In this document: positions 1 to 21,321 of the stretch, in pieces
Layout: each line of letters opens with the position of its first letter
Numbering within the stretch: position 1 is the stretch's first letter
Virus record (IMG/VR): IMGVR_UViG_3300037088_000116
Coordinates: 1 to 21,764 of that record
Source of the DNA: a virus
Strand: one strand, 5' to 3'
Length of the DNA stretch: 21,764 nucleotides
Translations under genes and position numbers: made by a program
Notes under the pieces: model-generated
The model's database searches: none
Seen by the model: the letters and a program-made list of their open reading frames with translations, nothing else
What the model was told of the DNA's origin: nothing

Positions 1-156
1 CAGGAATAAAACATCATCCTGCAGTTTCATGTCCTGCACTTCCTTCTGGATAGCCTCATACCGTGGTTTTAACTGCTCACGTATTGAGCTGATTTGACTC
101 TGTAACTCTGTCAACCGTACAAGGTCGGCAGGATCAATCTTGGCTATGTCATTCAT
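1..156 (-). CDS. Hypothetical coiled protein, C-terminus cut by window edge
   Basis: An open frame starts at ATG 156-154 and runs off the left edge (52 codons visible). It is preceded by an AAGGGG ribosome site (from TAAGGGGTCAGTGT). The visible part is rich in Leu, Gln, Glu and Arg with heptad-like spacing (residues about 14-45), suggesting a helix or coiled coil. The start overlaps the end of the upstream gene by 8 bases (ATGAATGA), which points to translational coupling in a leftward operon. I do not recognise the family. It could be a small early or replication-associated phage protein, but only its position supports that. Confidence 0.6.
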   Translation of the reverse strand, partial: MNDIAKIDPADLVRLTELQSQISSIREQLKPRYEAIQKEVQDMKLQDDVLFL

Positions 157-457
157 ACACTGACCCCTTAATCTTCTTCTGCCACATTTCTTCAATATCG
201 CAAATAAATTCGACAAGCTCATCGTAGTCCCTTATGGAACCAAAGTCATTAACATAGAAGATTATGGACACATCATCCTTGTCGTGTATGGCTCTCACTG
301 TATCATCCTGAGTAAGAACATCCCACTTGATCTTGCCCTGCCCATTGAGAGCTTCAGCCACATCCTCAAAATCCGAAATACTAAAGTTCATTTCATCCGC
401 TTCCTCAAACTTCTCATCAACCAATTCCTCTACAATTGCTCCAAATTCTTCATTCAT
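149..457 (-). CDS. Hypothetical acidic protein (102 aa)
   Basis: A 102-residue frame with a strong ribosome site (GGGAGGAG, 7-8 bases before the ATG). That site lies inside the last codons of the upstream gene, whose stop ends only 2 bases away, so the two are probably co-translated. The protein is strongly acidic, with many Asp/Glu (for example EELVDEKFEEADE near residue 10) and few basic residues until a short WQKKIKG stretch near the C-terminus. It has no membrane segment or cysteine motif. No family is recognised. Small acidic early phage proteins sometimes act as inhibitors or DNA mimics, but that is only an analogy. Position between a DNA-binding-like gene and a coiled protein suggests an early-operon member. 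Confidence 0.75.
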   Translation of the reverse strand: MNEEFGAIVEELVDEKFEEADEMNFSISDFEDVAEALNGQGKIKWDVLTQDDTVRAIHDKDDVSIIFYVNDFGSIRDYDELVEFICDIEEMWQKKIKGSVYE

Positions 458-459
458 AA

Positions 460-702
460 TTAACTCCTCCCATTTTGATATAGTTTTATTTGTTTTTTCA
501 ACAGGATATATATCCTGCTCCTGATAGCAAACGGTGTACGGCCATGTTTTACATATGTATCTCGAATAAAATCTTGGAATCTGTTAGCAAGTAAATCATC
601 CTCAAACTCAGTCCATGGATGATGATGACGTGATGTATCATTTGCCTTTGGCAAGCCACACACTGAGCATACCCTTGAACCACATGTACATTGATCACTC
701 AT
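460..702 (-). CDS. Small zinc-motif plus Myb/SANT-like DNA-binding protein (80 aa)
   Basis: The N-terminus holds four cysteines at residues 5, 7, 12 and 15 (CxC-x4-CxxC), a likely zinc knuckle. Three histidines follow at 26-28. Residues 30-68 fit the Myb/SANT-like helix-turn-helix pattern: W30-T-E-F-E-D-D-L-L at the first helix and GRTPFAIRSRI (54-64) at the recognition helix. That pattern is common in phage HTH proteins that bind DNA. The ribosome site is AAGGGGG. The ATGA junction at 699-702 overlaps the stop of the upstream 41-aa gene, and the downstream start lies 3 bases after the stop. It is a candidate regulator or DNA-binding early protein; its target is unknown. Confidence 0.75.
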   Translation of the reverse strand: MSDQCTCGSRVCSVCGLPKANDTSRHHHPWTEFEDDLLANRFQDFIRDTYVKHGRTPFAIRSRIYILLKKQIKLYQNGRS

Positions 703-824
703 AGTTGACCCCCTTTCAAATCCTTGAATAGTTTGTTAGCAAAGTAACTGACAATTGTTATAACACCTATGCATGAGAAGAACACTATGCATCCAAACCA
801 GTAAACATTAATAACAACGTCCAT
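699..824 (-). CDS. Small single-pass membrane protein (41 aa)
   Basis: The frame starts at ATG 824-822, preceded by GAAGGGAG at good spacing, and ends at TGA 701-699, which overlaps the next ATG (ATGA). The 41-residue product is hydrophobic from about residue 3 to 29 (WFGCIVFFSCIGVITIVSYF inside) and ends in a basic/polar tail (NKLFKDLKGGQL). It has two Cys in the membrane segment. It is the first gene after the promoter at 926-954, with a 5' leader of roughly 95 bases. No family is recognised; size and topology fit a small inner-membrane early phage protein. Confidence 0.65.
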   Translation of the reverse strand: MDVVINVYWFGCIVFFSCIGVITIVSYFANKLFKDLKGGQL

Positions 825-925
825 TGTCTTGACTCCCTTCTCCAGTGCTTGACTGGCAATAATGAAATGAAACTAATTGACTGTGTTACCTGAACTTAAC
901 TATTTAATATCTATCATCAAAAAAG

Positions 926-967
926 AGTATATACCCTTTTAAATAAAAAAGCAAGGTTTATTTTAAA
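926..967 (-). promoter_or_regulatory. Leftward sigma70-type promoter A with AT-rich upstream element
   Basis: Read on the minus strand: -35 TTGCTT (954-949), a 17-bp spacer, and -10 TATACT (931-926), with AT-rich TTTAAAATAAA just upstream of the -35. The 23-bp stretch 945-967 is repeated with one mismatch at 2098-2120 in promoter B, and the 11 bases around the -10 (924-934) are identical in both. Transcription would start near 919 and run into the 41-aa gene. The shared architecture and correct position before an operon make this a strong call. No experimental start is available. Confidence 0.75.
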
Positions 968-980
968 GTATATTCCTAAG

Positions 981-998
981 TAATATCGCGGACTTAGG
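981..998 (-). repeat. Iteron copy 1 (CCTAAGT-N4-GATATTA)
   Basis: On the minus strand this reads CCTAAGT CCGC GATATTA. Both 7-base half sites match the consensus exactly and only the 4-base spacer differs from copy 3. A plus-strand CCTAAGT at 975-981 pairs with its ACTTAGG (992-998), giving a local 7-bp dyad. Confidence 0.7.
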
Positions 999-1030
999 TC
1001 GTTTATAGGGGTATAGTATAAAAGGGTAGG

Positions 1031-1048
1031 TCTAAGTAGCTAATATTA
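1031..1048 (+). repeat. Iteron copy 2
   Basis: Reads TCTAAGT AGCT AATATTA: one mismatch in each half site relative to the consensus CCTAAGT-N4-GATATTA. Identity with copy 3 continues for 5 more bases (TTAAG region), so the direct repeat 1031-1053 / 1125-1147 is 23 bp with two mismatches. Confidence 0.7.
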
Positions 1049-1086
1049 TTAAGTTTATTTTAACAAAAGAGCATCACGTCTTTTTT

Positions 1087-1179
1087 CTGTGAATTTATAC
1101 ACGCTCGGATAGGGGTAACTATTGCCTAAGTAGCTGATATTATTAAGCGAAAGTCATTGTTGTATAAACGCACGCACAA
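1087..1179 (+). repeat. Left arm of a roughly 93-bp imperfect inverted repeat
   Basis: The block is the imperfect reverse complement of 1361-1454. The outer 17 bp (1087-1103 versus 1438-1454) match perfectly. The inner 19 bp (1161-1179 versus 1361-1379) match with one mismatch. In the middle, TAACTAT and the iteron half sites also align, with only about one base of length difference overall. The two arms are separated by 181 bp that carry the C8 and T13 tracts. Confidence 0.7.
1125..1142 (+). repeat. Iteron copy 3 (consensus copy)
   Basis: Reads CCTAAGT AGCT GATATTA, the form closest to the consensus. It lies inside the left inverted-repeat arm, opposite copy 4 in the right arm. Confidence 0.7.
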
Positions 1180-1360
1180 TTTGACTTTCGGAAAATAACC
1201 GACCCCCCCCTAGATTCTTAGACCCCCTAAAAAGTTTAATGTGACAATTTATATAACACTATATAAACCTTATTGTTATACCTTTTTATAGGTCTGGGGA
1301 GGATTTCTTTTTTTTTTTTTCTTCTTTCTATTTCCTAAGTAAATAAGAATTAAAATCTTG

Positions 1361-1454
1361 TTGTGCGTGCATTTATACACTATCGTATATATAATAGTAA
1401 TATCGTATAGTTAGGTCGATAGTTAGGGGTATAAATCCGTGTATAAATTCACAG
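1361..1454 (-). repeat. Right arm of the roughly 93-bp imperfect inverted repeat
   Basis: Partner of 1087-1179. It also shares a direct-repeat relation with the stretch 980-1016: GTAATATCG, TTAGGTCG and AGGGGTATA occur in the same order and nearly the same spacing at 1397-1433. The region therefore seems to have grown by several duplications and inversions of one module. Confidence 0.7.
1398..1415 (-). repeat. Iteron copy 4
   Basis: On the minus strand this reads CCTAACT ATAC GATATTA: one mismatch in the first half site, none in the second. It is in the opposite orientation to copies 2 and 3, so the four copies are ordered minus, plus, plus, minus. Confidence 0.65.
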
Positions 1455-1499
1455 GGATGAGAAGGTAAAAAAGAGGTAAAGTAAAAGCGGATATAGAGT

Positions 1500-1539
1500 A
1501 AAAAAAAAGGGTAATGAGATTAATTTCTCATTACCCTTT
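1500..1539 (-). terminator. Rho-independent terminator after the 1557-1985 gene
   Basis: Perfect 14-bp inverted arms (1506-1519 and 1526-1539) enclose a 6-base loop. On the minus strand the hairpin runs directly into nine T (A1500-A1508 on plus). It begins 17 bases after the stop codon of the leftward gene. This is a textbook intrinsic terminator and isolates that gene from the repeat region. Confidence 0.92.
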
Positions 1540-1556
1540 AAGTCAACTACAAGAAA

Positions 1557-1985
1557 TTATTCAGTTTTCGGTGCTTCTGTGGTCGTATTTGCTTTCAATG
1601 CTTTGGCCTCTGCATCACGTTTGGCCTTTTTGGCTTTGGTCACGCTGGATGATCTGATGATCACCTGATATTCATCAGTAACATTGAAGCTGATGGAATC
1701 CTGACCACTCGTAACATCATTTGCATCTGATCTACTATTTGCAAAGAGCTTGCTGATAGTCTCTGCATTTGCTTCAAGAGTGGGCAGAAAATTGGCCACC
1801 AGCAAAACATATTCCGCACTCTTGACTTTAGGTTCTTTGTCTTCAGTTAACTTGATACCCTTTGCTTTGGCATCCTTCTTGACCGCTTTGACTTGAGCAT
1901 TCAATGACTTTGCACTTGCTAACATAATGTTTATTTCGTCCATCGTCATTGCTTTGTCGCCCACCATAATCGTAACTTGATCCAT
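1557..1985 (-). CDS. Hypothetical Lys/Ala-rich protein in its own transcription unit (142 aa)
   Basis: A 142-residue frame with a strong AAAGGGG ribosome site 8 bases before the ATG, its own promoter (2079-2107) and a strong terminator (1500-1539). The N-terminal half is helical-looking with a Lys-rich stretch (residues about 30-52). The middle (about 57-85) is hydrophobic/helical (AEYVLLVANFLP). A beta-like segment (SFNVTDEYQVIIRSSS) precedes a basic, Ala/Lys-rich C-terminal tail (about 116-142). No cysteines, membrane segment or known motif is seen. I do not recognise the family. The dedicated signals suggest high or separately timed expression; the basic tail allows but does not prove nucleic-acid binding. 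Confidence 0.8.
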   Translation of the reverse strand: MDQVTIMVGDKAMTMDEINIMLASAKSLNAQVKAVKKDAKAKGIKLTEDKEPKVKSAEYVLLVANFLPTLEANAETISKLFANSRSDANDVTSGQDSISFNVTDEYQVIIRSSSVTKAKKAKRDAEAKALKANTTTEAPKTE

Positions 1986-2078
1986 TGTAATACCCCTTTC
2001 AATAATATAATGTGTGGCTTACCCCGTGTCATTTGCTTTATTGCAGGTCAGGTAAGTAACCTTTCTTGATTTAAGTAG

Positions 2079-2120
2079 AGTATATACTAAGGGTAGAAAA
2101 AAAGCAAGCTTTATTTTAAA
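2079..2120 (-). promoter_or_regulatory. Leftward sigma70-type promoter B with AT-rich upstream element
   Basis: On the minus strand: -35 TTGCTT (2107-2102), a 17-bp spacer, -10 TATACT (2084-2079). The upstream 2098-2120 stretch is a 23-bp near-copy (one mismatch) of the one in promoter A, and the -10 neighbourhood is identical. Transcription starting near 2072 would give a leader of about 85 bases before the ATG at 1985. Confidence 0.75.
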
Positions 2121-2129
2121 TTATTATAT

Positions 2130-2201
2130 CGTCTAGATGCCTATGCCTAGAGGGTTTTAAACGGTAGACGTTTTACTTTTGATGATGAGGCCGTATCATC
2201 A
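2130..2201. promoter_or_regulatory. Dyad elements between divergent promoters (candidate operators)
   Basis: CGTCTA (2130-2135) pairs with TAGACG (2165-2170), and TGATGAT (2180-2186) pairs with ATCATCA (2195-2201) across an 8-base loop. They lie between the leftward promoter B and the rightward promoter at 2325-2354. No T-run follows, so they are not intrinsic terminators. They may be regulator-binding sites. The rest of the 390-bp intergenic stretch (1986-2374) holds no gene that I can see; 2219-2244 is made of three C-runs of 5-6. Confidence 0.3.
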
Positions 2202-2324
2202 TGATGCTAAGGGGTACACCCCCTACCACGCCCCCCTACCCCCCTCACAACGGACAAACCCTCCTCTTCACGTGGCAACAATTTTTAAATCTAAATATAT
2301 TTATTCCCACCCCTACCTTTTTCC

Positions 2325-2354
2325 TTGACAAAAACACGTAGTGTAAGTTATACT
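2325..2354 (+). promoter_or_regulatory. Rightward sigma70-type promoter for the structural gene block
   Basis: A perfect -35 TTGACA (2325-2330), an 18-bp spacer and -10 TATACT (2349-2354), with A/T-rich sequence further upstream (2281-2305). Transcription would start near 2361, leaving only about 14 leader bases containing AAGGA (2362-2366) before the ATG at 2375. It is the only strong rightward promoter I see; no terminator interrupts the genes downstream, so it may serve the whole rightward block. Confidence 0.8.
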
Positions 2355-2374
2355 CTCTTATAAGGAATTACTAT

Positions 2375-2677
2375 ATGGCAGATAGAAGTGTACTACGACA
2401 AGCAGCTGGTGAAGTATATGGCGCTTATGGAACTACTCTCAATAAGGTGAAAGAACTTTTAACATTCGACAACATAAATGATGTAGATGTTTTACATTTA
2501 TTTAATGAAACCAACAGGAATACAGGTAAACGGCCAGATACAGTGAGTGATGAGAAGAAAGCCATTTACAAGAAGCACGGAGAGAATCGTATCTTCGAAG
2601 AAGTGGATCCCACTCACGATAGTTATGTTAATGAAAAGGGACAACGAGTTACATTTCAAGTGCCAAAGGACGAATAA
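2375..2677 (+). CDS. Hypothetical protein, first gene of rightward operon (100 aa)
   Basis: The frame begins 21 bases after the -10 of the rightward promoter, with AAGGA at 2362-2366. The 100-residue product is hydrophilic and charged, with mixed acidic/basic content, no Cys, no membrane segment and a C-terminal stretch (YVNEKGQRVTFQVPKDE) that looks like a beta hairpin. I do not recognise the family. As the first rightward gene it may be a small regulatory or structural accessory protein. Confidence 0.75.
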   Translation: MADRSVLRQAAGEVYGAYGTTLNKVKELLTFDNINDVDVLHLFNETNRNTGKRPDTVSDEKKAIYKKHGENRIFEEVDPTHDSYVNEKGQRVTFQVPKDE

Positions 2678-2679
2678 CA

Positions 2680-2832
2680 ATGACGAATCTATATTACTTC
2701 TTAGGTGGAGTGGGAATAGCCAGCATTATCTGGTTCTTCATTCTGTTGAACAACTCATCGGAAATTAGAAAAGATTTGAATGATGAGATAGATAAACTGA
2801 AAAGAAAATTGCCGAAAACAAACTTTAGCTAA
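2680..2832 (+). CDS. Small single-pass membrane protein (50 aa)
   Basis: ATG at 2680 follows AAAGGA (2665-2670) at 9 bases, and starts 2 bases after the previous stop. Residues 4-23 are hydrophobic (LYYFLGGVGIASIIWFFILL), followed by a charged, amphipathic helix-like tail rich in Lys, Asp and Glu (residues 28-45). The topology is one N-terminal membrane anchor with a cytoplasmic coil. The stop overlaps the TAATG at 2832. Function unknown; a lysis-accessory or membrane-anchoring role is possible but unsupported. Confidence 0.6.
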   Translation: MTNLYYFLGGVGIASIIWFFILLNNSSEIRKDLNDEIDKLKRKLPKTNFS

Positions 2833-2864
2833 TGTTAAAGAAAGTCAATAATAGGTGGGCACTC

Positions 2865-3005
2865 ATGAGTAAGGGTAGTCCCAATAAGGTTTTGAAATGG
2901 TTTGGTAAGAACAAGCCAAGTTCCAATGCGGTGAACCACAGGGAGAAACAAGTAGATTACTTTAAACAAACTAAATTGAGGAAAATCAAGAAGGAGAAAT
3001 TATGA
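2865..3005 (+). CDS. Small basic hypothetical protein (46 aa)
   Basis: The frame is open from ATG 2832 (TAATG overlap, 57 aa) and from ATG 2865 (46 aa). I chose 2865 because AGGTGGG sits at Shine-Dalgarno distance, while nothing purine-rich precedes 2832. The product is highly basic (about 14 Lys/Arg in 46) with no hydrophobic segment. It ends in TGA at 3003-3005, overlapping the next ATG (ATGA), and its last codons AAG AAG GAG supply the next gene's ribosome site. Function unknown. Confidence 0.5.
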   Translation: MSKGSPNKVLKWFGKNKPSSNAVNHREKQVDYFKQTKLRKIKKEKL

Positions 3006-3202
3006 ACTCATTGATTCAGCTTTTGATTTATGTTATTATCTTTGGTATTATCGGCTATGGACTGTGGTGGGTGTGTGCTAAGTTCGCATTACCTCAACCA
3101 GTAATGTGGATAGTCGGTGCCATCCTCCTGATCTTCCTCCTTGTTTTCTTAGGCGGACAACTTGGTGTTGGCAATAATTTCCACTTTGGAAGTTTAAAAT
3201 AG
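3002..3202 (+). CDS. Two-TM small membrane protein (66 aa), holin-like topology
   Basis: Two hydrophobic helices (residues about 4-27 and 34-54) are joined by a short ALPQPV turn, with a polar C-terminus (GNNFHFGSLK). The pattern resembles the widespread small two-TM families often called small phage membrane proteins or holin-like proteins. The ribosome site AAGGAG lies 7 bases before the ATG. Another, better candidate holin is encoded at 9043-9480 beside the endolysin, so this one could be an accessory membrane protein rather than the main holin. Confidence 0.65.
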   Translation: MNSLIQLLIYVIIFGIIGYGLWWVCAKFALPQPVMWIVGAILLIFLLVFLGGQLGVGNNFHFGSLK

Positions 3203-3214
3203 GTAGGTGATATT

Positions 3215-3394
3215 ATGGCATTAGTAATTAGGTGTGCGGTTTGTGGGAACTTCGTTGAAGTAGCAAGTATATCCAATGATGCGGAGAGTGTCATCAGGGT
3301 ATATCCATGCAAGTGCCAGTATGATGAGGGTGTTAAAGAGGGTACTTCCATTGAAGTTCGCAATGAAGGCAAGTCTCTTGGTATCGGGGGTTAA
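3215..3394 (+). CDS. Mini zinc-ribbon-like protein (59 aa)
   Basis: ATG 3215 follows AGGTAGGTGA. The product has a CxxC pair at residues 7-10 (CAVC) and a CxC pair at 32-34 (CKC), spaced as in a small zinc ribbon, with a Gly-rich end (GIGG). It is followed 2 bases later by another CxxC protein. Function unknown; small zinc ribbons often bind nucleic acid or act as protein adaptors. Confidence 0.6.
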   Translation: MALVIRCAVCGNFVEVASISNDAESVIRVYPCKCQYDEGVKEGTSIEVRNEGKSLGIGG

Positions 3395-3396
3395 TC

Positions 3397-3600
3397 ATGG
3401 CTCAACGAATATGTTGTAGTTGTGGGAAAGAACTTACCATCACAGCCCAGTATGCAGATGCATCCAATACAGTAGTTGCTAAGTATTGTCCTATGTGTAT
3501 TGTAGCAGCTTATAATATTGGTTATATAGATGGTGCTGCAACAGCTACACCTAAAACAGATGCTGATGTTATTATGACAGGGCGTATTGATCTTGGATGA
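3397..3600 (+). CDS. Mini zinc-ribbon-like protein (67 aa)
   Basis: CxxC pairs at residues 6-9 (CCSC has an extra Cys at 7) and 31-34 (CPMC) form a C4 zinc-ribbon pattern near the N-terminus. The C-terminal half is Ala/Thr/Asp-rich. GGGGG (3386-3390) may serve as ribosome site. The gene overlaps the start of the following zinc-motif gene by 14 bases. Function unknown; second of three consecutive C4 proteins. Confidence 0.65.
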   Translation: MAQRICCSCGKELTITAQYADASNTVVAKYCPMCIVAAYNIGYIDGAATATPKTDADVIMTGRIDLG

Positions 3601-3787
3601 GACCATAATTTGCTGTCCTGAATGTTGGAAAAAGGATGGGAAGTTTCCCCTATATGGGGAGATTCCTGTTGGCAACTCACAGATATGCTACTGTGAGAAG
3701 TGTCACAAGGTTTATTCGGTCAGGTTCGATTTTGAGAAGAAGGTCAGCTTAAAATATACAGGACAACTGGAGACTTGGTTCTATTAA
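3587..3787 (+). CDS. Mini zinc-ribbon-like protein, TTG start (66 aa)
   Basis: CxxC pairs at residues 10-13 (CPEC) and 36-39 (CEKC, preceded by C34) give a clear C4 zinc ribbon, followed by a beta-rich C-terminus. No ATG lies upstream of the first Cys pair in frame. TTG at 3587 with AGGGCG just before it is the best start; TTG at 3593 is an alternative. The stop overlaps the next ATG (TAATG at 3785-3789). Third of three adjacent C4 genes; function unknown. Confidence 0.6.
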   Translation: MILDETIICCPECWKKDGKFPLYGEIPVGNSQICYCEKCHKVYSVRFDFEKKVSLKYTGQLETWFY

Positions 3788-4305
3788 TGGAGACACTAGC
3801 ACTAAGTTTAACAGACCAATATAATAAGGATAGGGCGATTCTATCGCAACCTATATCCTCTTTGGCGAAACTGGCAGGGTTGAAAGTTGAGGATGTGTAC
3901 GATAGACTTATTCCAGAACTTGCCAAGAAAGACTTGGGGGAGGTTATTAAGTTTGCTGATGTTGGCTTGCGGTATGCCAGTATTGTTGATAGGAATAGGT
4001 TGCGAGAAGAATGTGGTGAGAAGTTTATCACCGCCATGCATATGATTATCGGTACTGTTAAGAGTGGTCTTGACAGCAAGGAGAATTGGATAAAGCGAAA
4101 GGCCATGGGGATGCATGGTGCTTTGATTGATGAGCAGGCAGAGAAGCAACGATTTGTCGAAGTTCTTATGACAGAGAGGAAGATTGAGATGTTGAGGGAG
4201 TCTCGTAAGAATCTTGACAAACTTGAAGAAGAAATAATTGATATAGAGCAAGTGTTTCCCAAACAGAAGGAAGTAACTTGCAGGGAGGTGGTGGTATGGA
4301 AGTAG
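3787..4305 (+). CDS. Candidate terminase small subunit (172 aa)
   Basis: I chose ATG 3787 (TAATG overlap) over the in-frame TTG at 3775. Residues about 16-40 (ILSQPISSLAKLAGL, then a second helix) could form a helix-turn-helix. The middle is helical, and residues about 118-155 form a strongly charged coiled coil. Size, an N-terminal HTH-like part, a central helical oligomerisation-like part and a place two genes before TerL fit a small terminase, which recognises phage DNA. I see no diagnostic motif, so this is inference from position and shape. Confidence 0.5.
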   Translation: METLALSLTDQYNKDRAILSQPISSLAKLAGLKVEDVYDRLIPELAKKDLGEVIKFADVGLRYASIVDRNRLREECGEKFITAMHMIIGTVKSGLDSKENWIKRKAMGMHGALIDEQAEKQRFVEVLMTERKIEMLRESRKNLDKLEEEIIDIEQVFPKQKEVTCREVVVWK

Positions 4306-4547
4306 TAAGTTATAGGCCAAGTGCGGGTGATTGTCCAAGTAATGGAATGTTTGGATTGCTGTGTATAGCAGACGGTACAAACGCTGCTACGATTACTGTT
4401 AGAAATTCAAAGGGTGTAACTCTCATGACTATTGTAACCAAGCAACCTTTGTCTTTGTTCGGCCCAATTAGGGGCGGTGATACTCAATATTCATTTACAG
4501 CATCAGGAACTGGTGGAAGTGTTCTATTCTTTGAGGCAATAATTTAG
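4296..4547 (+). CDS. Hypothetical beta-rich protein (83 aa)
   Basis: The ATG at 4296 follows a strong GGGAGG (4283-4288) at 7 bases. An upstream TTG at 4278 would include the ribosome site in the gene and is rejected. The 83-residue protein is Gly/Thr/Ser-rich with alternating hydrophobic residues (TITVRNSKGVTLMTIVTK), suggesting a small beta sandwich. It overlaps the previous gene by 10 bases and its TAG stop overlaps the GTG start of TerL. The fold type fits a small virion or decoration protein, but I cannot assign it. Confidence 0.65.
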   Translation: MEVVSYRPSAGDCPSNGMFGLLCIADGTNAATITVRNSKGVTLMTIVTKQPLSLFGPIRGGDTQYSFTASGTGGSVLFFEAII

Positions 4548-6082
4548 TGAACGATGAATTGGTCGAAGCTCGTGAGAAATATAAAGCAAATATTTATTAT
4601 CTCGCTAAAGATTTGCTTGAGTTTAAAGACCTCACAGCGGAGTTTCATTATAAATTTGTCTGCAAAAGATTGAGTGAACCACGGAAGAAGGACATACGAT
4701 TATGGCTTCTACCACGTGGTTTCTTCAAGACCACTATACTCACGCTTACACATGCAATATCTTTACAAATTAATACCCCTTCAATAAGAATCGCAGTAAT
4801 CTCATCTGTTCTTGCCAATGCCAAGGATATGGTTACTGCGATTGGCCATCCTTACTTAGTTAATGAAAGATTCAGGATGTACTTTGAAAAATACTGTCCA
4901 AAGAAACCTCAATCTCCAGACACGATATGGACTCAGACAGAGATACATGTTCCCAATCGTGGTGGCAGACCAGTGTTGGAAGGAACGTTTGAAGCATTCG
5001 GTGCGGATAGCACACTTACTTCTAGACATTTCGATCATATTATTATTGATGACTTAGTGACAAGAGAGAACTCCACTACTCGTGATCAAATGGATAAGGT
5101 CAAACAATTCTACCGTGCCATATTCCCATTGAGAAATGACCCCCATACACCCATTGATATTATTGGAACACGGTGGGATGATTATGATTTATATGGGGAT
5201 TTAGAAAAGGATGAGGATGTTGAGCTCATTAAGATAGCATCTTATACAACTGATGCTAGTGGTGAGAAGATACCCACCTGGCCAGAGAGATACCCCATTG
5301 ATGAACTCATGAAGATTAAACAGGGTAAGAAGATGGGTTCATATTTATTCTCCTGTTTATATCAGCAAGACCCTGTACCACAAGAAAACGCAGTATTCAA
5401 AGCAAGTTATTTCAAATACTTCAAATACAATCCTGCCAAGAATACAATTGTTCGTGACGATGATGTTGAAATTCCAGTAGGCAATACCTATATGGCTGTT
5501 GACGGTGCTACTGAGGAAGGGAAGAATGACTACTCTACCATAGTTATTGGTTGCCAGGATTATAAAGAGAATGTATATATTCTTGATGTGTGGTTTAAAC
5601 AAATAGACCCTGCAGCATTTCTTGATGTTATGAAGGAATACTATACCAGATGGAAATGTTTAAGGTATGCTGCACAGAAGGCAATGGTTGAGAAGATGTT
5701 GAAATCATTTCTCAAGAAGAAGCAACGTGATGAGAAGTTCTATATGTCTCTTGAGGAATTGGGAAAGAATACTGGGCTAAATAAAGAATACACCATTAAA
5801 CAAATGCAGCCGTGGTATGAGGGTGGTTACGTTTGGCATAACCAAAAGTTACTTGGAACTGAACTTGAAGAACAACTTACAAGGTTTCCCAAAGCAAGTC
5901 ATGACGACATAATTGATGCTGAGCAGATGTTGTTCGAAATTATCAAACCATCTAGTAAGGTTGTCAGCATTCAGGATTATGACAGGAACTCAGTTCATTT
6001 GTGGAAGCGAAGATTGAAACGTGCACTCGGCCCCAATATGAGTGAATCAACTGGTGGTGTTGTTGACGCAAGGACTTACTAA
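4547..6082 (+). CDS. terL: Terminase large subunit (ATPase/nuclease)
   Basis: This is the motor that cuts and packages phage DNA into the prohead. The ATPase domain shows a Walker A-like PRGFFKTT (residues 56-63), a Walker B IIIDD (165-169) and the motif-III-like IIGTRW (205-210). The C-terminal nuclease domain has the RNase-H-like acidic residues: AVDGATEEGKNDYS (D319, D328) and SHDDIIDA (D453/D454). Length (511 aa) is normal. The start is GTG overlapping the previous TAG (TAGTG), with GAGG 12 bases upstream, so translation may depend on coupling. The portal gene follows with a TAATG overlap. Confidence 0.95.
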   Translation: MNDELVEAREKYKANIYYLAKDLLEFKDLTAEFHYKFVCKRLSEPRKKDIRLWLLPRGFFKTTILTLTHAISLQINTPSIRIAVISSVLANAKDMVTAIGHPYLVNERFRMYFEKYCPKKPQSPDTIWTQTEIHVPNRGGRPVLEGTFEAFGADSTLTSRHFDHIIIDDLVTRENSTTRDQMDKVKQFYRAIFPLRNDPHTPIDIIGTRWDDYDLYGDLEKDEDVELIKIASYTTDASGEKIPTWPERYPIDELMKIKQGKKMGSYLFSCLYQQDPVPQENAVFKASYFKYFKYNPAKNTIVRDDDVEIPVGNTYMAVDGATEEGKNDYSTIVIGCQDYKENVYILDVWFKQIDPAAFLDVMKEYYTRWKCLRYAAQKAMVEKMLKSFLKKKQRDEKFYMSLEELGKNTGLNKEYTIKQMQPWYEGGYVWHNQKLLGTELEEQLTRFPKASHDDIIDAEQMLFEIIKPSSKVVSIQDYDRNSVHLWKRRLKRALGPNMSESTGGVVDARTY

Positions 6083-7953
6083 TGGTTAAGGAAACTCAAA
6101 AAGAAAAAGACTTGCAAGAGATTAAAGTTTGGCGTGACCGTATTGAACGTGGTAAGAAACTACGCAAGCGGAAAATCAAGGAAGCCAAAAAGTATATCAA
6201 GTATTACAAGTCTGATCAATGGAGTGATTCAACTGGTTACAAAGAGAAACCAGTTACTAATCTTATATTTGCAAGCATCAAGTCACAACTACCATTCTTG
6301 TACTTCCAGAATCCTAAGTGGTATGTAACACCAAAGACTGGACATAAGCAAGATAAGAAGAAGATCATTGAAAATGCCAAGACAGCTAGTTTGTTTCTTA
6401 ACTATTATGCTAATGAGAATCTTAGAATAACATTGAAGAAACAAGCCAGGCTTGTTATTCTTGATGCCATATTTATTTTTGGTGCTATGAAGGTTGGGTA
6501 CGTTCCCAATATGGTTATTAATGAGAACTATGGCAAACCTAAAGTATTGGGATATGAAGATCAAGAACCAATATATGATATTGATGATAAAGGTAATGTC
6601 ATAGTTGATGAAGATGAAGATATTATGTTGAATGAGAAGTTTGTTGCTCGCAGGGTTTCACCTGCTTCATTCATATTTGATACTGAATGTCAAAACTATT
6701 TTGAAGATGGTCGCTATATCATTGAAGAAATCTCTCTCCCCTTGGAGGATGTGAAGAACGATAAGAAATACAAGAATACAAAGAATTTGAAACCCTCTTA
6801 TATGGCCAAGAGGGGGTTGGATTTATCTGAAAATGAAATGGCTAAGTCTGACTATCGTGAACTGCAGGAGGACTTGAAACGAGTTACCCTGTATGAAATT
6901 TGGGATATTGAGCATGACAAGTTGAAGGTCATTGCCGAAGGACATGACGATTGGTTACGCAACGTTGAGACCCCCGAAGGTGTGGAAAGCGACCCATATG
7001 TTTTCCTGCAGTTCAATGATATTCCAGATGAAGTGTATCCCTTGTCAGATATAAGGGTACAAATTTCTCCACAGGATGAATACAACAAAGCAACTGCTAT
7101 GGTACTTACGCATGCCAAAAGATTCAATCGTAAGTATGGTTATGTTGAAGGAATGATTGATGAAGACCAGATGAGAATTGTTGAATCTGGTGAAGATGGT
7201 TCTTTTTTCAAAGTTAAAGATATGCCGTTGTCAAAAGTTATTGAACCGCTAACCGATTCGCAGATTAACCAAGCTGTGTTGATGGGGTTGGAAGGTTCGA
7301 GACAAAACTTTGACAAAGTTTCTGTTACTAATGAAGCAGACCGTGGAGTTATTGAAAGAAGAAAAACAGCGTTTGAAGCCAATAAAGTGTATGGTTCTTC
7401 TGATTTGAGAAAAGAAGATAGGCGTTCATTGGTTGAAGATATGATGTCTCAGGTTGGCGATAAGTTGCTTCAAAGCATGCAAGCCAATTTGACTCCGCAA
7501 GAGTCAGTTCCAATTGGTGGTGTTGAGAATGCACAGAATTGGGCAAATCTTGATAAAGATAATATTGAAGGACAATTCAATGTAAAAACAGAAGTTGGTA
7601 GTATGACTCCTAAACTACCAGAATCTGAGAGACAAGAGTTTGTACAATTTATGCAAGTATTGACTATGTTCCCACCAGAAATGATTAAAGTGAAAGTTAA
7701 TATGGATGGCATACTTGAAGCTATGACAACTATGTTCCCTGCACTTGAGGATATTGAATTAATTAATCCTCCAGAAACACAAAAGGTTGTTGGAGAACAA
7801 ATACAAAAACAAAAGCAGATGGAAATGATGTTGCAAGTTGCTAAGATGCGTGGTGGAAAGTTGCATCTTGATCCACAAGGGCAACCCAAGGGACAACCCA
7901 AGGGAAAGGGTAAGCAACCCGCAAAACAACTGATGATGGGAGGTGGCAAGTAA
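6082..7953 (+). CDS. Portal protein (623 aa)
   Basis: The portal forms the dodecameric ring at the capsid vertex through which DNA passes. Evidence is the place directly after TerL, the size, and family-like features: a basic N-terminal helix (residues 1-50, YIKYYKSDQW), PFLYFQNPKW near 70, and SPQDEYNKAT around 330-340, typical of P22-type/podoviral portals. The long helical C-terminal part is followed by a Gln/Met-rich helix (about 570-590) and a low-complexity basic Gly/Gln/Lys/Pro tail (GQPKGQPKGKGKQPAK). The start overlaps the TerL stop (TAATG) with AAGGA upstream. Confidence 0.88.
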   Translation: MVKETQKEKDLQEIKVWRDRIERGKKLRKRKIKEAKKYIKYYKSDQWSDSTGYKEKPVTNLIFASIKSQLPFLYFQNPKWYVTPKTGHKQDKKKIIENAKTASLFLNYYANENLRITLKKQARLVILDAIFIFGAMKVGYVPNMVINENYGKPKVLGYEDQEPIYDIDDKGNVIVDEDEDIMLNEKFVARRVSPASFIFDTECQNYFEDGRYIIEEISLPLEDVKNDKKYKNTKNLKPSYMAKRGLDLSENEMAKSDYRELQEDLKRVTLYEIWDIEHDKLKVIAEGHDDWLRNVETPEGVESDPYVFLQFNDIPDEVYPLSDIRVQISPQDEYNKATAMVLTHAKRFNRKYGYVEGMIDEDQMRIVESGEDGSFFKVKDMPLSKVIEPLTDSQINQAVLMGLEGSRQNFDKVSVTNEADRGVIERRKTAFEANKVYGSSDLRKEDRRSLVEDMMSQVGDKLLQSMQANLTPQESVPIGGVENAQNWANLDKDNIEGQFNVKTEVGSMTPKLPESERQEFVQFMQVLTMFPPEMIKVKVNMDGILEAMTTMFPALEDIELINPPETQKVVGEQIQKQKQMEMMLQVAKMRGGKLHLDPQGQPKGQPKGKGKQPAKQLMMGGGK

Positions 7954-8273
7954 TGCCCATCTACGAATACGAATGCAAAAGGTGTAAAATAATATTGGGT
8001 ATGTATGCCCCTGTTCGTGATTGGAATAAGAGGCAAAAGTGTGAATGCGGTAGAACCATGAAGAAGATTCTTTCGGTGCACGAAGCCCGTGCATTTGTTG
8101 AACAAAATTTGAATGTGACTATTACAGATAGGAAAACTGGCAATGAGAAGATTCTTCATGCAAATAATAGACAAGAGGTTAAGGATGCTATAAATAGATA
8201 TAATGATACACCGGATGCATCAAGAACTGGTAAAATTTCACAGGTTGAGATATTGTCTCAAAGGGAGTTCTAA
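7953..8273 (+). CDS. FmdB-like zinc-ribbon protein (106 aa)
   Basis: The N-terminus MPIYEYEC is the hallmark of the FmdB/CxxC regulatory zinc-ribbon family. Cysteines lie at 8, 11 (CKRC) and 30, 32 (CEC). The family is found widely in bacteria and phages and its role is poorly known. The C-terminal part (about 50-106) is hydrophilic and unmatched. TAATG overlaps join it to the portal gene and to the next gene. Its recurrence here, next to several other small zinc proteins, is notable. Confidence 0.8.
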   Translation: MPIYEYECKRCKIILGMYAPVRDWNKRQKCECGRTMKKILSVHEARAFVEQNLNVTITDRKTGNEKILHANNRQEVKDAINRYNDTPDASRTGKISQVEILSQREF

Positions 8274-8599
8274 TGGAATTCTTATCAATAACAAATTTAA
8301 ACACATTAATCATTCCTATTGTAATTAGTTTATCTACAGCATTTATTATTCAACATTCAAACAGGAAGGCCAAACAACGTGATGAGCACGAAACAGAAGT
8401 TAAAAAATTATTGAAGCAAATTGAAGATACTAAAGAGATATCTCTTACTGAATGGCAAGCGGAAGTTCACAAGAACTTCAATGAAATTAAAGATATGACC
8501 AAAAAGATTGCTGATGATGCAAGGGATATGGTTCCATTTGAGTCTTGTGATAAGCGAATGGAAAAACTTGAAGAGAGAGTCAGAAAGATAGGTGGATGA
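8273..8599 (+). CDS. N-terminally anchored coiled-coil protein (108 aa), spanin-like shape
   Basis: Residues about 9-27 form one membrane segment (NTLIIPIVISLSTAFII). The remainder (30-108) is a charged amphipathic helix that fits a long coiled coil. This resembles the inner-membrane component (i-spanin, Rz-type) of phage lysis cassettes, and the next two genes are the endolysin and holin. No o-spanin lipoprotein was found nearby. The TAATG start has AAGGGAG upstream, and the TGA stop overlaps the endolysin ATG. Spanin identity is inference from topology and context. Confidence 0.7.
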   Translation: MEFLSITNLNTLIIPIVISLSTAFIIQHSNRKAKQRDEHETEVKKLLKQIEDTKEISLTEWQAEVHKNFNEIKDMTKKIADDARDMVPFESCDKRMEKLEERVRKIGG

Positions 8600-9030
8600 T
8601 GAAATACTTTCAGATTTATGAGTTGGTAGATGAGAAAACATGGAGAACTATTGGTGATAAGGCGTGGGAGTTATTTAAACCGGATGCTCTTATAATGTTA
8701 GATAATTTCAGAGAGTTTATCGGTGTTCCTTGCTCAGTGAATAATTGGTATGGTGCTACTGGTGGTTATGCAACGAGACAGTTTTCAGGATTTCGCCCAG
8801 AAGATTGTCCTATCGGTGCAAAACACAGCCAACATAAATTGGGAAATGCCTTCGATGTCCATGTAAAGGACATGAATGCTGATGATGCAAGAAAACGTAT
8901 TTTAGCAGATAAGGATAATCCCTTGTTGTTAAACATAACACGGCTTGAATCGGGTGTGGCATGGGTTCATATGGATGCTATGGTGCTTCCTGCAGGACTT
9001 AAACGTATTCATGTATTTGCGGATGTATGA
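8596..9030 (+). CDS. Peptidase M15-type endolysin (144 aa)
   Basis: This is a candidate zinc peptidase that cuts peptidoglycan cross-bridge peptides at lysis. The M15 family signature is complete: SQHKLGNAFDVH (H80 and D87 as metal ligands) and ESGVAWVHMD (E118 as catalytic base, H125 as ligand). No signal peptide or membrane segment is present, so export would depend on the adjacent holin. The length suits a single catalytic domain without a cell-wall-binding module. Two ATGs in a row (8596, 8599) are possible; the first overlaps the previous stop. Confidence 0.9.
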   Translation: MMKYFQIYELVDEKTWRTIGDKAWELFKPDALIMLDNFREFIGVPCSVNNWYGATGGYATRQFSGFRPEDCPIGAKHSQHKLGNAFDVHVKDMNADDARKRILADKDNPLLLNITRLESGVAWVHMDAMVLPAGLKRIHVFADV

Positions 9031-9042
9031 AAGGAGCATGAT

Positions 9043-9480
9043 ATGGGATTTGATATAACAGGATTAGGTTCGATATTTGATTTTGGAAGCAAAGTAATTG
9101 ATAAAATCTTTCCAGATAAAACTGCTGCTGATAAGGCAAAGTTTGATTTGCTTACACAACAGCAAGCAGGACAATTGACTGAGTTACAAAACGATTTTAA
9201 TCTTGCAATTAAACAAATTGAAACAAATGCGGTAGAAGCTGAAAATCCAAGTACCTTCGTATCAGGATGGCGACCTTTTGTGGGATGGATATGTGGAGTT
9301 GCTTTGGCATATAATTATATATTTATGCCACTTTTTGTATATATTATGCAAATGGCCTTTAAAGGAGCACCTGGCATGCCAGCTCTTGATATAGGGGAAT
9401 TGATGACATTATTAATTGGTATGTTAGGGCTTGGTGCTTTAAGGTCTTATGACAAACAAAATGGCGTAGCAGCCAAATAA
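9043..9480 (+). CDS. Holin of the three-TM phage/GTA type (145 aa)
   Basis: The N-terminal half is a soluble helix region (residues 1-70). Hydrophobic segments follow at about 77-104 (probably two passes, or one long one) and 118-134. The pattern SGWRPFVGW ... then LMTLLIGMLGLGALRSYDK at the end matches the three-TM holin family known from gene transfer agents and many phages. Holins make the membrane hole that releases the endolysin, which is the gene just upstream. The ribosome site is AAAGGAG. Confidence 0.85.
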   Translation: MGFDITGLGSIFDFGSKVIDKIFPDKTAADKAKFDLLTQQQAGQLTELQNDFNLAIKQIETNAVEAENPSTFVSGWRPFVGWICGVALAYNYIFMPLFVYIMQMAFKGAPGMPALDIGELMTLLIGMLGLGALRSYDKQNGVAAK

Positions 9481-9494
9481 GAAAGGAAAAGATT

Positions 9495-10274
9495 ATGCCG
9501 CCCAAAGACATTCATGAAGGTGTTACAGACGATGGACAGAGTTATGTTAGAATTTTGGAAGATGACGATACCTTACACGATGATGAAATTCAAGATGATG
9601 AAGGTGGTGATGAAAATCCCATAACAACAATTCTGAAAAAACTTGATATTAAATCTTTGCCTCAAGAACAGCAAGATTTGTTCAAGGAACTGGAAGACAA
9701 TATTAAAAGTCGTAACAATGATAAAAGTGATGAGGAGCGACAAACAACTGTTGAAGCTCTTAAAAATATTGTTGCTCAATTACAAGATTTAAAGAAACCA
9801 CCTGCTGATGACCAAACACCAGCAGGTAGGAAGAAATTAGCAGAGTCATTGAAATTTGAAGATAATGATTTTTATGCTCCCTATTTCAAGCAAGTAGCGT
9901 CAGCACTTGATTTGGCAATTGATAAGTTAGAGGGCATTGAAAAAGCAAGGGTAGATGATAAGAGATCGTCTTTTCAAGAAAAGGCTGTCACTTTCATCAA
10001 AGAAAATAAACTATCTCCCAAAGTAATAGGTAAAATGGATGAGATTTCTAAAGCTATGGGTTCAGGCGTCTATAATGATTTGCCGAGATTACTGAAAATA
10101 GCAAAGTCAGAACTCGGAATCAGAGACATACCCCAAGGCAGACCGAGGCCCAATGAGAATAATATCGTTGAGTTTCGTGGTAGAAAGAAATCTGATTCAA
10201 CTGTTGACCAGAGACCTGCTAAAACGATGGAGGAGGCATGGAATCGGGCACAGGAACAGTTAGGTGGAGAATAA
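9495..10274 (+). CDS. Head scaffolding protein candidate (259 aa)
   Basis: A hydrophilic, helical protein immediately upstream of the major capsid gene, the usual place of the scaffold that guides prohead assembly. It has an acidic N-terminal patch (about 22-40, DDDTLHDDEIQDDEGGDE), long charged helices with coiled-coil potential and a basic C-terminal part (about 214-235, FRGRKKS), which in known scaffolds binds the coat protein. No catalytic protease motif was seen. Ribosome site AAAGGAAAAG. The call rests on position and composition. Confidence 0.78.
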   Translation: MPPKDIHEGVTDDGQSYVRILEDDDTLHDDEIQDDEGGDENPITTILKKLDIKSLPQEQQDLFKELEDNIKSRNNDKSDEERQTTVEALKNIVAQLQDLKKPPADDQTPAGRKKLAESLKFEDNDFYAPYFKQVASALDLAIDKLEGIEKARVDDKRSSFQEKAVTFIKENKLSPKVIGKMDEISKAMGSGVYNDLPRLLKIAKSELGIRDIPQGRPRPNENNIVEFRGRKKSDSTVDQRPAKTMEEAWNRAQEQLGGE

Positions 10275-10297
10275 CAAGTTAATCGGAGGATTCTATT

Positions 10298-11356
10298 ATG
10301 GCAGTTAATTCATTAACTTACAACTTTGATGACCTTTTATCAACCACATGGATGAATTATAGGTCACAGTTGTATGACAACATATTCAATGCATGTCCGT
10401 TCTTTTATTGGATTCATGCCAATGAGAGAAAGCGTGTGGAAGATGGCGGTGAAAGGATTGTTATTTCTCTGGAATATGGTAAAAATACTACTATCAAATC
10501 CATGTCAAGTGGATATGATGTTATTGATACTACTCCTCAGGAAGTCTTTACTGCTGCGTACTACACGTGGAAGGAGGTCGCAGGTTCGACAAGCATTTCA
10601 AACAAAGAACTTGCAATGAACCAAGGTAAAAACAAAATACTTGACTTACTTACTAAGTTGGCTCATAATACTGAGATGTCATTCTCAGAAGTTATTGAGG
10701 CAATGATTGTTGGTGCACTTACCAATGGAAATGGTGGTGCTGATCTTACACCTATCAATCTATTGATTAAGTCTGACCCTACTACATCTACCACGATTGG
10801 TGGTATTAACCAGAACACTTATTCTTGGTGGAGAAACCAGTATAAACAATCTTCTGCATCTACATATGAACAGTTTATCAAAGAAATTGTTACTATGTAT
10901 AACCTTTGTTCTAGGTATGGTAGTAAGAATGGTAAGAGAAAAGCACCAGATGTAATTCTCTGCGACCAGTATTACTATGAAACCTACCTTGGTGCTGCAC
11001 GAGCTAAGGGTCAGGTTATTATGCAGAATGATAAAGTAGCAGACATGGGCTTTGGTGGTGCTAAGTATCTTGGTGCTACCCTTTTGTGGGATGAATATGT
11101 ACCTGATGTTTATACTGGTACAGCCAATACTAACCCTGCATCTTATACCTATACATACTCTGCTGGATTGTTTATCAATTCAGAGTTCCTTGAGTTTGTT
11201 GTGTGTAAAGGTCAGGATTTTGTTGTTGGCCCGTTCATTCAGCCTGAAAACCAGAAAGCCAAAACGTCGATCATTTATTTGATGGGAGAACTTGTTTGCT
11301 CTAATAGAGCAAAACAGGGCGTGCATCAGCATGTTTCTCAGTCAATCACTTCTTAA
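10298..11356 (+). CDS. Major capsid protein (352 aa)
   Basis: The main building block of the head shell, probably HK97-fold. Support: length, position after the scaffold, a near-perfect ribosome site (CGGAGGA), and the expected alpha/beta composition with a long central helix region (NTEMSFSEVIEAMIVGAL, about 128-145). The C-terminus has an SSIIYLMGEL-like core strand region. There is no obvious prodomain cleavage site. No other gene in the window is a better candidate. Confidence 0.88.
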   Translation: MAVNSLTYNFDDLLSTTWMNYRSQLYDNIFNACPFFYWIHANERKRVEDGGERIVISLEYGKNTTIKSMSSGYDVIDTTPQEVFTAAYYTWKEVAGSTSISNKELAMNQGKNKILDLLTKLAHNTEMSFSEVIEAMIVGALTNGNGGADLTPINLLIKSDPTTSTTIGGINQNTYSWWRNQYKQSSASTYEQFIKEIVTMYNLCSRYGSKNGKRKAPDVILCDQYYYETYLGAARAKGQVIMQNDKVADMGFGGAKYLGATLLWDEYVPDVYTGTANTNPASYTYTYSAGLFINSEFLEFVVCKGQDFVVGPFIQPENQKAKTSIIYLMGELVCSNRAKQGVHQHVSQSITS

Positions 11357-15423: not shown

Positions 15424-17873
15424 TGTTACAACGATTCAGACAAAAGCGAGTCCAGAAAGATAAGGAATATGTGGCTAAATCTGCACAATTTCAATTTACT
15501 GGTATAAATCTTGATGAATCACCTATAAAAATACAAGAAAATGAACTGTCTCGTTCTTTGAATGTTTTTATAAAAGAGGGTAGATGGAGAAAACGACCTG
15601 GATTAATACCTTTTGGAAATGGATTACCACTACCAAATCCAGTAATGCAAATTGAACAGTTCTTTAGGTATGATGGAACGGAATATCTTGTTGCTCTTAC
15701 TACAAGAGATGCATATTGGTATAATGTCGTTACACAGTTTTGGGATTTAATATCAGAAAATTTATTAGTTGATGATTGTGAATTGACTTGGACAGCTAAC
15801 CAAAATGCATCAGCAATAATAGATACATCTTGGTTTAGATATGGTAGCAAATCGGCAAAAATATCAACTCAAGCTGGATTTACAACAGGAATTGCAGCTA
15901 CAAAGAATTTAGTTAGTCCAATTAATTTATCAGGATATACACATATTCATTTGTATATTAAATCAAGTATTGATTTAAATGCAGGTGATTTGCAAATATT
16001 GTTCAATGGTCAAAGTGTAGGCGGTGTTGCATTTGATAATATTAACACACCAGACTTAACTACCGATGCTTCTTCTGATATGGAAAAAGCATCTGTACCA
16101 ATTGATGTTCGTGATATTACTGCAGGAGATTTAGCAAATTTAAACATACTGCCTACGTTGCCAAGTTCTGTATCTGGAAATATTGACACGCAACCACTTA
16201 CAGTTGACATTCCATTAGATATGGAATGTGCCATAGCTGTTAGTGGTAAAGATATAAACCCAATAACAGCACAAGATTTGGCTGTTCTTAATATTTTACC
16301 AGACTTAACTGGACTACCCGATGTAAATATTCCAAGATTGACAATATTTGCAACGGATATGCCAATTGATCTTGAAAAAGATATTGCTAAATCTTGCAAA
16401 GATTTATCTCTATTAACTGTGAGTGATTTAAAGAACTTACAAATTATGCCAAATGAACCAATTGGTTCTTCTTCAGAAACCCTTAATGTTCCTGCATTAG
16501 ATGCAAATGTTCCAACTGAAATTGAAATTATTTTATCAAATGCTTCTCTTGATACAAATATTTCATCAATAAGTCTTAAAGTTGCAACAAACAAAGGTAT
16601 ATTCGATGTTTGGTTGGATGATATTCGCACTATTAAATGCTTTACTGGAGATATTAATAACAGATTCAGTTGTGAAACAGTATATGACAATGATTCAAAT
16701 GAGGTAAAATTTATAATAACAAATGGATTTGATGTTCCAAAGTGTTGGAATGGAACATTGCATCTTATAGACCTGCCTGGCAATCCACATAAAGCTAAGT
16801 TTGTTAAGCAGTTTTATACTTGGACTTTATTGTTAAATTGTAATGTTCTTGGTAATGATACTCCTCAACGTGTTGATTGGTGTGTTCCAGGTAATCCAAA
16901 AGATTGGTCAGGTGTTGAATCTGGAACTAACACGTTGGCGGCAACAACTGGGCCAATTGTTGGTTGTGAAATATTAAGAGGACAACTTGCCATATTATTG
17001 GAACGTTCAATAACTATGATGTACGCAACAGGAAGTTCACCACCCTTTACCTTTGATGAAAACAAAATCCTTGATGTAGGATGTATGTCAGCAGGAAGTA
17101 TTCAATCTCTTGGTGAAACATTGATGTTCTTGGGATGGGATAATTTCTACACTTTTGATGGATTCTCTTGCAATCCTATTGGAGACAAAGTTATTAATTA
17201 TTTTCTTGATAACTTAAATCCAAATGGAATTGACCAGATGTTTTCTCATATGTTGGAAGATTATAATTTGTATTTGTTGTTTTTCCCATCACCGCAATCG
17301 GATGCACCAGACCAAGTTATAGTTTATGATTATTCTAAAAATGCTTTTATTGGAATTTGGAAATTTGCTTCTGATATGACAGCTGATGGATATTACAGAT
17401 CAGAGAGTGCAACAACTATTGGTGCTTTAACAATGATTATTGGTGATATGGACTTTAAAATTGGTTCAAGAGTATTTCAAAGTGTTGCACCATACGATAT
17501 GTTGGGCGATTATGATGGGTATATTTATAGAAATACAGAAATGATTAAAAATGATGATGGTGTTCCAATAGAATCCTATATGGATACTAAAAGTTTTATG
17601 CCAAATCTTGGAAAATACAGTAGATTTGTAAGGAATGAATTTTATGCAGTTGGTGATTTGTTAGAAACATATGTTAGCAATGATAATGGCAAAGTTTTTT
17701 CCCTGCTTACATCAACTCTACTTGGTACAGATGAAACAGAACCAATATTGACAGACCCATTTGATGTAACAAATGAGAAAGCAATATTCAGATTAAGAAA
17801 CGCTGAGATGGAAGGATTTTTTAATTTGGATGGATTCAGATATTATTCAATTGATAAAGATGAGGAAGTGTAA
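15423..17873 (+). CDS. Large tail protein, gp10/propeller-like, with internal repeats (816 aa)
   Basis: The N-terminus GINLDESPIKI followed by GRWRKRPGL (about 27-61) is the pattern of podoviral tail hub/stabilisation proteins, which close the tail beneath the connector and often fold as beta propellers. Residues 115-403 look like an inserted beta-sandwich (ending DVWLDDIRTI, a typical last-strand signature). Inside it, a unit of about 49 residues is repeated three to four times (see findings). Residues 430-816 return to propeller-like strands with W/F/Y-rich loops. TAATG overlaps on both sides place it within the tail block. Confidence 0.75.
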   Translation: MLQRFRQKRVQKDKEYVAKSAQFQFTGINLDESPIKIQENELSRSLNVFIKEGRWRKRPGLIPFGNGLPLPNPVMQIEQFFRYDGTEYLVALTTRDAYWYNVVTQFWDLISENLLVDDCELTWTANQNASAIIDTSWFRYGSKSAKISTQAGFTTGIAATKNLVSPINLSGYTHIHLYIKSSIDLNAGDLQILFNGQSVGGVAFDNINTPDLTTDASSDMEKASVPIDVRDITAGDLANLNILPTLPSSVSGNIDTQPLTVDIPLDMECAIAVSGKDINPITAQDLAVLNILPDLTGLPDVNIPRLTIFATDMPIDLEKDIAKSCKDLSLLTVSDLKNLQIMPNEPIGSSSETLNVPALDANVPTEIEIILSNASLDTNISSISLKVATNKGIFDVWLDDIRTIKCFTGDINNRFSCETVYDNDSNEVKFIITNGFDVPKCWNGTLHLIDLPGNPHKAKFVKQFYTWTLLLNCNVLGNDTPQRVDWCVPGNPKDWSGVESGTNTLAATTGPIVGCEILRGQLAILLERSITMMYATGSSPPFTFDENKILDVGCMSAGSIQSLGETLMFLGWDNFYTFDGFSCNPIGDKVINYFLDNLNPNGIDQMFSHMLEDYNLYLLFFPSPQSDAPDQVIVYDYSKNAFIGIWKFASDMTADGYYRSESATTIGALTMIIGDMDFKIGSRVFQSVAPYDMLGDYDGYIYRNTEMIKNDDGVPIESYMDTKSFMPNLGKYSRFVRNEFYAVGDLLETYVSNDNGKVFSLLTSTLLGTDETEPILTDPFDVTNEKAIFRLRNAEMEGFFNLDGFRYYSIDKDEEV
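16050..16631 (+). repeat. Internal about-49-residue protein repeats within the tail protein
   Basis: Residues about 210-257, 258-305, 306-355 and a diverged 356-403 share TAGDLANLNILP, TAQDLAVLNILP and TVSDLKNLQIMP cores, spaced 49 and 50 residues apart, each preceded by an LTVDIPLDME-like strand (DMEKASV, DMECAIA, DLEKDIA). DNA-level identity is low, so the duplications are old. Confidence 0.75.
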
Positions 17874-18091
17874 TGAATTATATATTAAACAAAGGTACAT
17901 TTATGATTCCAGTTGTGCCTACTAAATTTGAAAATTTATCAGATGTTCAGAAAGTTTTGACCCAATTTCAACAACATCTTAGCGATATTGGAAATTCAGT
18001 TAATTTGTATGACCCAAGTAATTATCTTGATGGTGGATTTCCAAGTTCTGTGTATGGTGGAACTGACACGGTTGATGGTGGTGGAGTGTAA
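17873..18091 (+). CDS. Small tail-associated hypothetical protein (72 aa)
   Basis: TAATG overlaps tie it to the large tail gene and to the fibre gene. The start at 17873 is supported by GAGGAAG; ATG at 17903 would drop 10 residues. It is mixed helical up to about 45 (FENLSDVQKVLTQFQQHL) with a Gly-rich end (GGTDTVDGGGV). Function unknown; it may connect the tail to the fibre or act in fibre assembly. Confidence 0.65.
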   Translation: MNYILNKGTFMIPVVPTKFENLSDVQKVLTQFQQHLSDIGNSVNLYDPSNYLDGGFPSSVYGGTDTVDGGGV

Positions 18092-19662: not shown

Positions 19663-19674
19663 GGAGACAAACAT

Positions 19675-20058: not shown

Positions 20059-20075
20059 CGGAGGAAAGGGAAGCC

Positions 20076-20483: not shown

Positions 20484-20484
20484 A

Positions 20485-21312: not shown

Positions 21313-21321
21313 AAGGAAAAT

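Follow-up and report, generated by a model that had tools for sequence, protein, structure and literature searches.

Sites for integration host factor (IHF), a bacterial DNA-bending protein, lie upstream of phage early promoters, as at the early promoter of phage Mu and at lambda pL, and are found with DnaA sites in iteron-type origins like oriC and those of pSC101 and R6K. They are also carried by the tRNA-end attachment sites of integrating elements, and Pseudomonadota are IHF-bearing bacteria. Mycobacteriophage L5 has stoperators. The window, by which we mean the whole stretch of 21,764 nucleotides of viral DNA analysed here, holds copies of a motif that resembles IHF sites in its placement, both in phage control regions and at the attachment sites of mobile elements.

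Four motif copies in a noncoding gap

The preliminary description listed four copies of CCTAAGT-N4-GATATTA in mixed orientation, with at most one mismatch per half-site. All are present as given (Table 1), the two mismatches of copy 2 being split between its halves, and every other position of the window has at least three mismatches to this pattern. The degenerate fifth copy proposed to start at 1334 was rejected because it has four mismatches to the refined motif (see below) and stays under all matrix thresholds used, keeping only CCTAAGT. Copies 1 and 2 form an inverted pair, 50 bp start-to-start, and copy 1 is overlapped by a small palindrome, CCTAAGT-N10-ACTTAGG.

Table 1. Positions of the motif copies and of neighbouring features in the window, and overlaps of the window with contig G001
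Feature	Position	Strand	Remarks
Overlap with G001	1..11224		G001 23528-34751
Overlap with G001	16471..21764		G001 1-5294
First small ORF of leftward operon	699..824	-	41 aa
Candidate sigma-70 promoter, leftward early operon	926..954	-	-35 TTGCTT (949-954), 17-bp spacer, -10 TATACT (926-931)
Motif copy 1, CCTAAGTCCGCGATATTA	981..998	-	0 mismatches to CCTAAGT-N4-GATATTA; closest copy to leftward early promoter
Motif copy 2, TCTAAGTAGCTAATATTA	1031..1048	+	2 mismatches, one per half-site
Left arm, imperfect inverted unit	1087..1122	+	pairs with 1419-1454, 75% complementary, centre ~1270
Motif copy 3, CCTAAGTAGCTGATATTA	1125..1142	+	0 mismatches; best copy
Inner arm with TGTATAAACGCACGCACAA	1161..1188	+	partner 1352-1379, 82% complementary
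T13 homopolymer in pyrimidine-rich tract between copies 3 and 4	1308..1320	+	
Inner arm partner	1352..1379	-	pairs with 1161-1188
Motif copy 4, CCTAACTATACGATATTA	1398..1415	-	1 mismatch
Right arm, imperfect inverted unit	1419..1454	-	pairs with 1087-1122
Intrinsic terminator of 1557-1985 gene	1506..1539	-	right-hand end of control region
142-aa protein gene	1557..1985	-	42% identical to G003 counterpart

The four copies stand inside the noncoding gap 825-1556, between the first small ORF and the leftward gene for the 142-aa protein; up to the terminator of the latter the gap covers 825-1505, ~680 bp. Copies 3 and 4 mirror each other about position 1270 and are carried by an imperfect inverted unit that is not seen in the relatives G004 and G016 presented below. 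The candidate leftward promoter has a weak -35 (3/6), below the reach of the promoter scan. A second leftward promoter, at about 2079-2107, shares a near-identical upstream stretch (27 bp, 93%) with the one at 926-954; it has no motif and is a natural comparison. An RNA element was rejected, the region giving sub-threshold eukaryotic microRNA models only. Farther right, positions 2205-2354 form a conserved noncoding block upstream of the rightward late operon, with a C-rich run, then TATTTATTCCCAC, then TTGACA-18-TATACT. This block is shared with G003 (L008:900-1075) and G004 (L142:580-760) and could be a late-promoter element or a packaging site.

Window-only statistical support for the motif is modest. 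The count over the whole window at three mismatches is 7, against a shuffle mean of 2.9, and 7 was reached in 5 of 100 shuffles. A post-hoc-fair test looked for the best 7-N4-7 family in the shuffled intergenic region; it attained four copies 3 times in 200 shuffles.

The array in the phage genome and its relatives

The window, an IMG/VR fragment, overlaps the near-identical contig G001 at both ends, and the two combine into a circular 39,999-bp (~40.0-kb) map with the motif region at the head of divergent operons. The rightward arm codes for terminase, portal, head and tail proteins; an ATP-grasp (GARS-like) protein gene is found at its far end (L140:10967-12232). Beginning at the motif region, the leftward arm encodes an SNF2 helicase, a radical SAM protein, a PD-(D/E)XK nuclease, Sak4-like and SSB-like proteins, a resolvase-like protein, HNH and a CHC2 primase joined to an MCM-like AAA domain. 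The proteins examined include no lysogeny functions. Named phages have no DNA-level match to the motif region; at the protein level their terminases are at most ~27% identical and their primases ~31-32%.

Two relatives carry the motif at the corresponding region. In G004 (39 kb), whose terminase is 73% identical, a (-) copy is followed by a (+) copy 50 bp away start-to-start, as in the window, and an independent matrix finds that pair only. G016 (29 kb) is syntenic, its SNF2 helicase being 57% identical, and its array matches that of the window in place, order and strands (-,+,+,-), the matrix giving 4+1 matches. A homopolymer tract separates its third copy from its fourth; the region also contains a terminator-like hairpin, and the 142-aa gene has an evident homologue there. 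At the DNA level, homologues of the 1557-1985 reading frame flank this region in G016 and lie at the start of the G004 contig. The counterpart of the homopolymer tract is a long A run in G016, and the G004 contig ends at a similar poly-T tract. That contig end (L139:13980-14015) matches 1308-1320, and assembly may fail there. The TAA of copy 1 lies 42 bp from the -35 in the window and 32 bp from it in both G004 and G016, a difference of about one helical turn, as expected if the face of the helix matters.

The independent matrix was trained on unrelated viruses only, all sites of this phage clade being left out. On shuffled genomes it averages 0.4-0.8 matches at ≥12 bits, and no match there reaches 20 bits. 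In the ~40-kb map it finds the four copies and one weak match, so that the motif is clustered, as first described, and not scattered through the genome. Its excess over shuffled sequence is clear when this matrix is run against shuffled genomes and only modest in the window alone. The relatives and the independently trained matrix provide the decisive evidence that the motif is real. The four sites are genuine copies of a 20-base predicted protein-binding site, and their array is conserved.

The refined motif in other viruses and in bacterial chromosomes

A scan that left the spacer unconstrained yielded 36 cluster sites, with S at position 4 in 36/36, Y at position 5 in 35/36 and T at position 14 in 36/36, and the motif is therefore written as TAASYNNYTRATWTTATTRG, 20 bp. 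Across phages, position 8 is also Y, and TTATTRG (positions 14-20) continues the site. The earlier picture of two contact blocks around a free centre is kept for the blocks, which belong to a clustered, sequence-specific site, but not for the centre, which is constrained to S-Y at positions 4-5. A text search of the literature with the motif letters returned unrelated papers only.

IMG/VR was scanned with a seed; its 14 bases alone are common there by chance. The hits are mostly in unrelated contigs, several of them with clusters of additional copies, and in 22 carrier records the motif vastly outnumbers the reversed control. The motif is not this phage's own, being present in many unrelated virus contigs and at chromosomal tRNA 3' ends. 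A fresh sample has 72 of 83 sites outside ORFs, although 76% of its DNA is coding, and another copy within 500 bp at 25/89 loci vs 1/89 random points. This noncoding clustering, the independent matrix and the array conserved in syntenic phages refute a chance resemblance in AT-rich intergenic DNA, which would agree with the modest statistics of the window but is hardly credible.

Virus contigs L033 and L021 have 11-14 matrix matches. In L033 the motifs occupy many intergenic positions upstream of sigma-70-like promoters, frequently paired in inverted orientation on either side of a G+C-rich core. This recurrence between genes and the inverted pairs are reminiscent of the L5 stoperators, from which the L033 sites differ in sequence; no repressor or lysogeny module was identified. 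An identical motif region with six copies is found in four contigs of 30-131 kb (L165, L180, L188 and L191), of which the 131-kb record is perhaps composite or flanked by host DNA. Among isolates, six relatives of the L165 and L197 phages, which are other carriers, have no motif clusters. Promoters at 31/32 and 41/42 bp from the motif were in excess in a first survey (30 vs 8 expected, with some overlapping counts), largely due to L021, L033, L189 and this clade. A second, independent set had no excess at these spacings (3 vs 2.8). Promoter spacing was therefore rejected as a general feature of the motif, and belongs to this clade and a few other arrays such as those of L021, L033 and L189.

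The chromosomal survey covered 398 genomes of one phylum, the Pseudomonadota, and gave 55 exact matches to the extended motif vs 2 for the reversed control. In 9 of 30 loci the motif coincides with a tRNA 3' end placed by ARAGORN, further cases being recognised by T-arm sequence, and the final TGG of the motif at tRNA ends is usually the complement of CCA. S-Y is present in 41/60 chromosomal sites when the spacer is left unconstrained in the scan. These positions (L202-L231) suggest that the motif is a common element of tRNA-linked attachment sites. In genome G395, seven near-identical copies are dispersed in one chromosome (L218 and six other places), possibly inside a repeated element.

The abutment to chromosomal tRNA 3' ends, with an integrase ~1 kb from the motif in two genomes, would also be expected if the copies in the window belonged to an attP, as arm or core sites bound by a tyrosine integrase. 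An integrase is absent from G001 and G004, which led us to reject integrase arm sites, and is present in only 2 of 22 carrier records; with the lack of lysogeny genes among the proteins examined, this makes an attP at the locus very improbable.

Candidate binding proteins and possible role of the region

The E. coli IHF consensus is WATCARnnnnTTR, which is YAANNNNYTGATW when reversed, and TAAnnnnTTGATW is marked at the attL of the Rac prophage (PMC8407004). Copy 3 fits this consensus exactly and copy 2 with one mismatch. Copies 1 and 4 have at least two mismatches, with TATCGC / TATCGT in place of WATCAR, and both G004 copies have TATTAG there, one mismatch each. In 2.5 kb around lambda attP, YAANNNNYTGATW has three matches, at the known positions of the IHF sites H1, H2 and H'. 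Copy 3 has 11/13 core bases equal to H1 and, like it, an AT-rich flank. The fixed four-site array without integrase sets this locus apart from lambda attP, and the motif matrix gives no strong score for H1, H2, H' or any P4 site. The four unconstrained bases of the E. coli consensus are not reproduced, S-Y occupying positions 4-5 in 35/36 cluster sites, and these positions, like the conserved TTATTRG at 14-20, fall outside that consensus. The in vivo logo of E. coli IHF has S at another position than here (PMC8407004).

A phage-encoded HU/IHF protein was rejected as the binder because none of 23 carrier records has a DNABII gene. Comparison of ten contigs found no protein family shared by all or most unrelated carriers: only helicase, terminase, nuclease and structural families recur, none in all ten, and a shared phage-encoded binder was also rejected. 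The products of 460-702 and 1557-1985, previously put forward as binders, match no DNA-binding family and have no support in this role. Since neither an integrase, nor an HU/IHF gene, nor, among the ten contigs compared, any other family is common to the carriers, a host factor is favoured. The most likely reading, which we hold tentatively and at close to an even chance, is that the copies are host IHF-type sites in an early control region.

In the main rival reading, the protein is instead a dedicated, non-IHF one, either conserved among hosts or widespread in phages and mobile elements. It would recognise TAASYNNYTRATWTTATTRG and regulate phage early promoters and the attachment sites of elements. 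Such a protein would account for conserved positions where the IHF consensus leaves freedom, for the TAAT variant in both copies of G004 and both of L173, and for the intact outer blocks of copies 1 and 4, whose IHF core is broken. We regard it as unlikely, given that the core coincides with the IHF consensus, that the placement beside tRNA genes is expected of att-region IHF sites and that no shared protein family was found.

According to the IHF reading, a host IHF-type DNA-bending protein would occupy the copies and, over several sites, build a nucleoprotein control region in front of the leftward early/replication operon. Copy 1 is upstream of the leftward promoter, where bending may create contacts with upstream DNA or with the polymerase alpha subunits. 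The arrangement would recall the Mu early promoter and lambda pL, where a site in rotational phase precedes a sigma-70 early promoter; unlike there, the copies are multiple, the distance to the -35 is fixed at 32 or 42 bp in this clade, and activation is putative. Copies 2-4 would give structure to the AT-rich DNA around the homopolymer, a plausible replication origin. We infer all three elements of this scheme: IHF as the binder, activation of the promoter and the origin.

The homopolymer tract, the repeats, the adjacent replication genes and the GC skew make the region possibly an origin. The same features would fit copies that are themselves iterons for a phage-encoded initiator, with unwinding at the homopolymer/AT-rich centre and the flanking TTATACAC octamers as DnaA-like boxes. 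Like iteron-type origins, the region combines repeated sites and an AT-rich tract in noncoding DNA beside replication genes (primase-helicase, Sak4 and SSB in the neighbouring left operon). Its repeats are symmetric about 1270, and the tract is shared with G004 and G016. The cumulative GC-skew minimum lies at or beside the motif region in the ~40-kb map and in G004, although skew also follows gene direction. The three TTATACAC octamers occur within the window only in this region, but have no counterparts in the G004 and G016 regions, and were rejected as DnaA boxes. The mixed orientations and wide, uneven spacing of the copies are unlike iterons, the left operon has no recognised initiator, and the motif also stands beside tRNA genes and in unrelated viruses whose replication genes differ. 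Iterons are therefore quite improbable at this locus, and host IHF-type sites remain the preferred reading.

A wider proposal, which we consider doubtful, is that TAASYNNYTRATWTTATTRG is a new, widespread site of a conserved protein, or of an IHF with a stricter code than that of E. coli, used by phages as an early control array and by integrating elements as a site beside tRNA genes. A site defined from one intergenic region is found clustered in the noncoding DNA of many unrelated viruses and also at tRNA-linked attachment sites. If its binder is not IHF, a conserved regulator of phages and mobile elements is still to be identified; if it is IHF, the IHF code would be sharper outside E. coli, and many environmental phages would be IHF-dependent.
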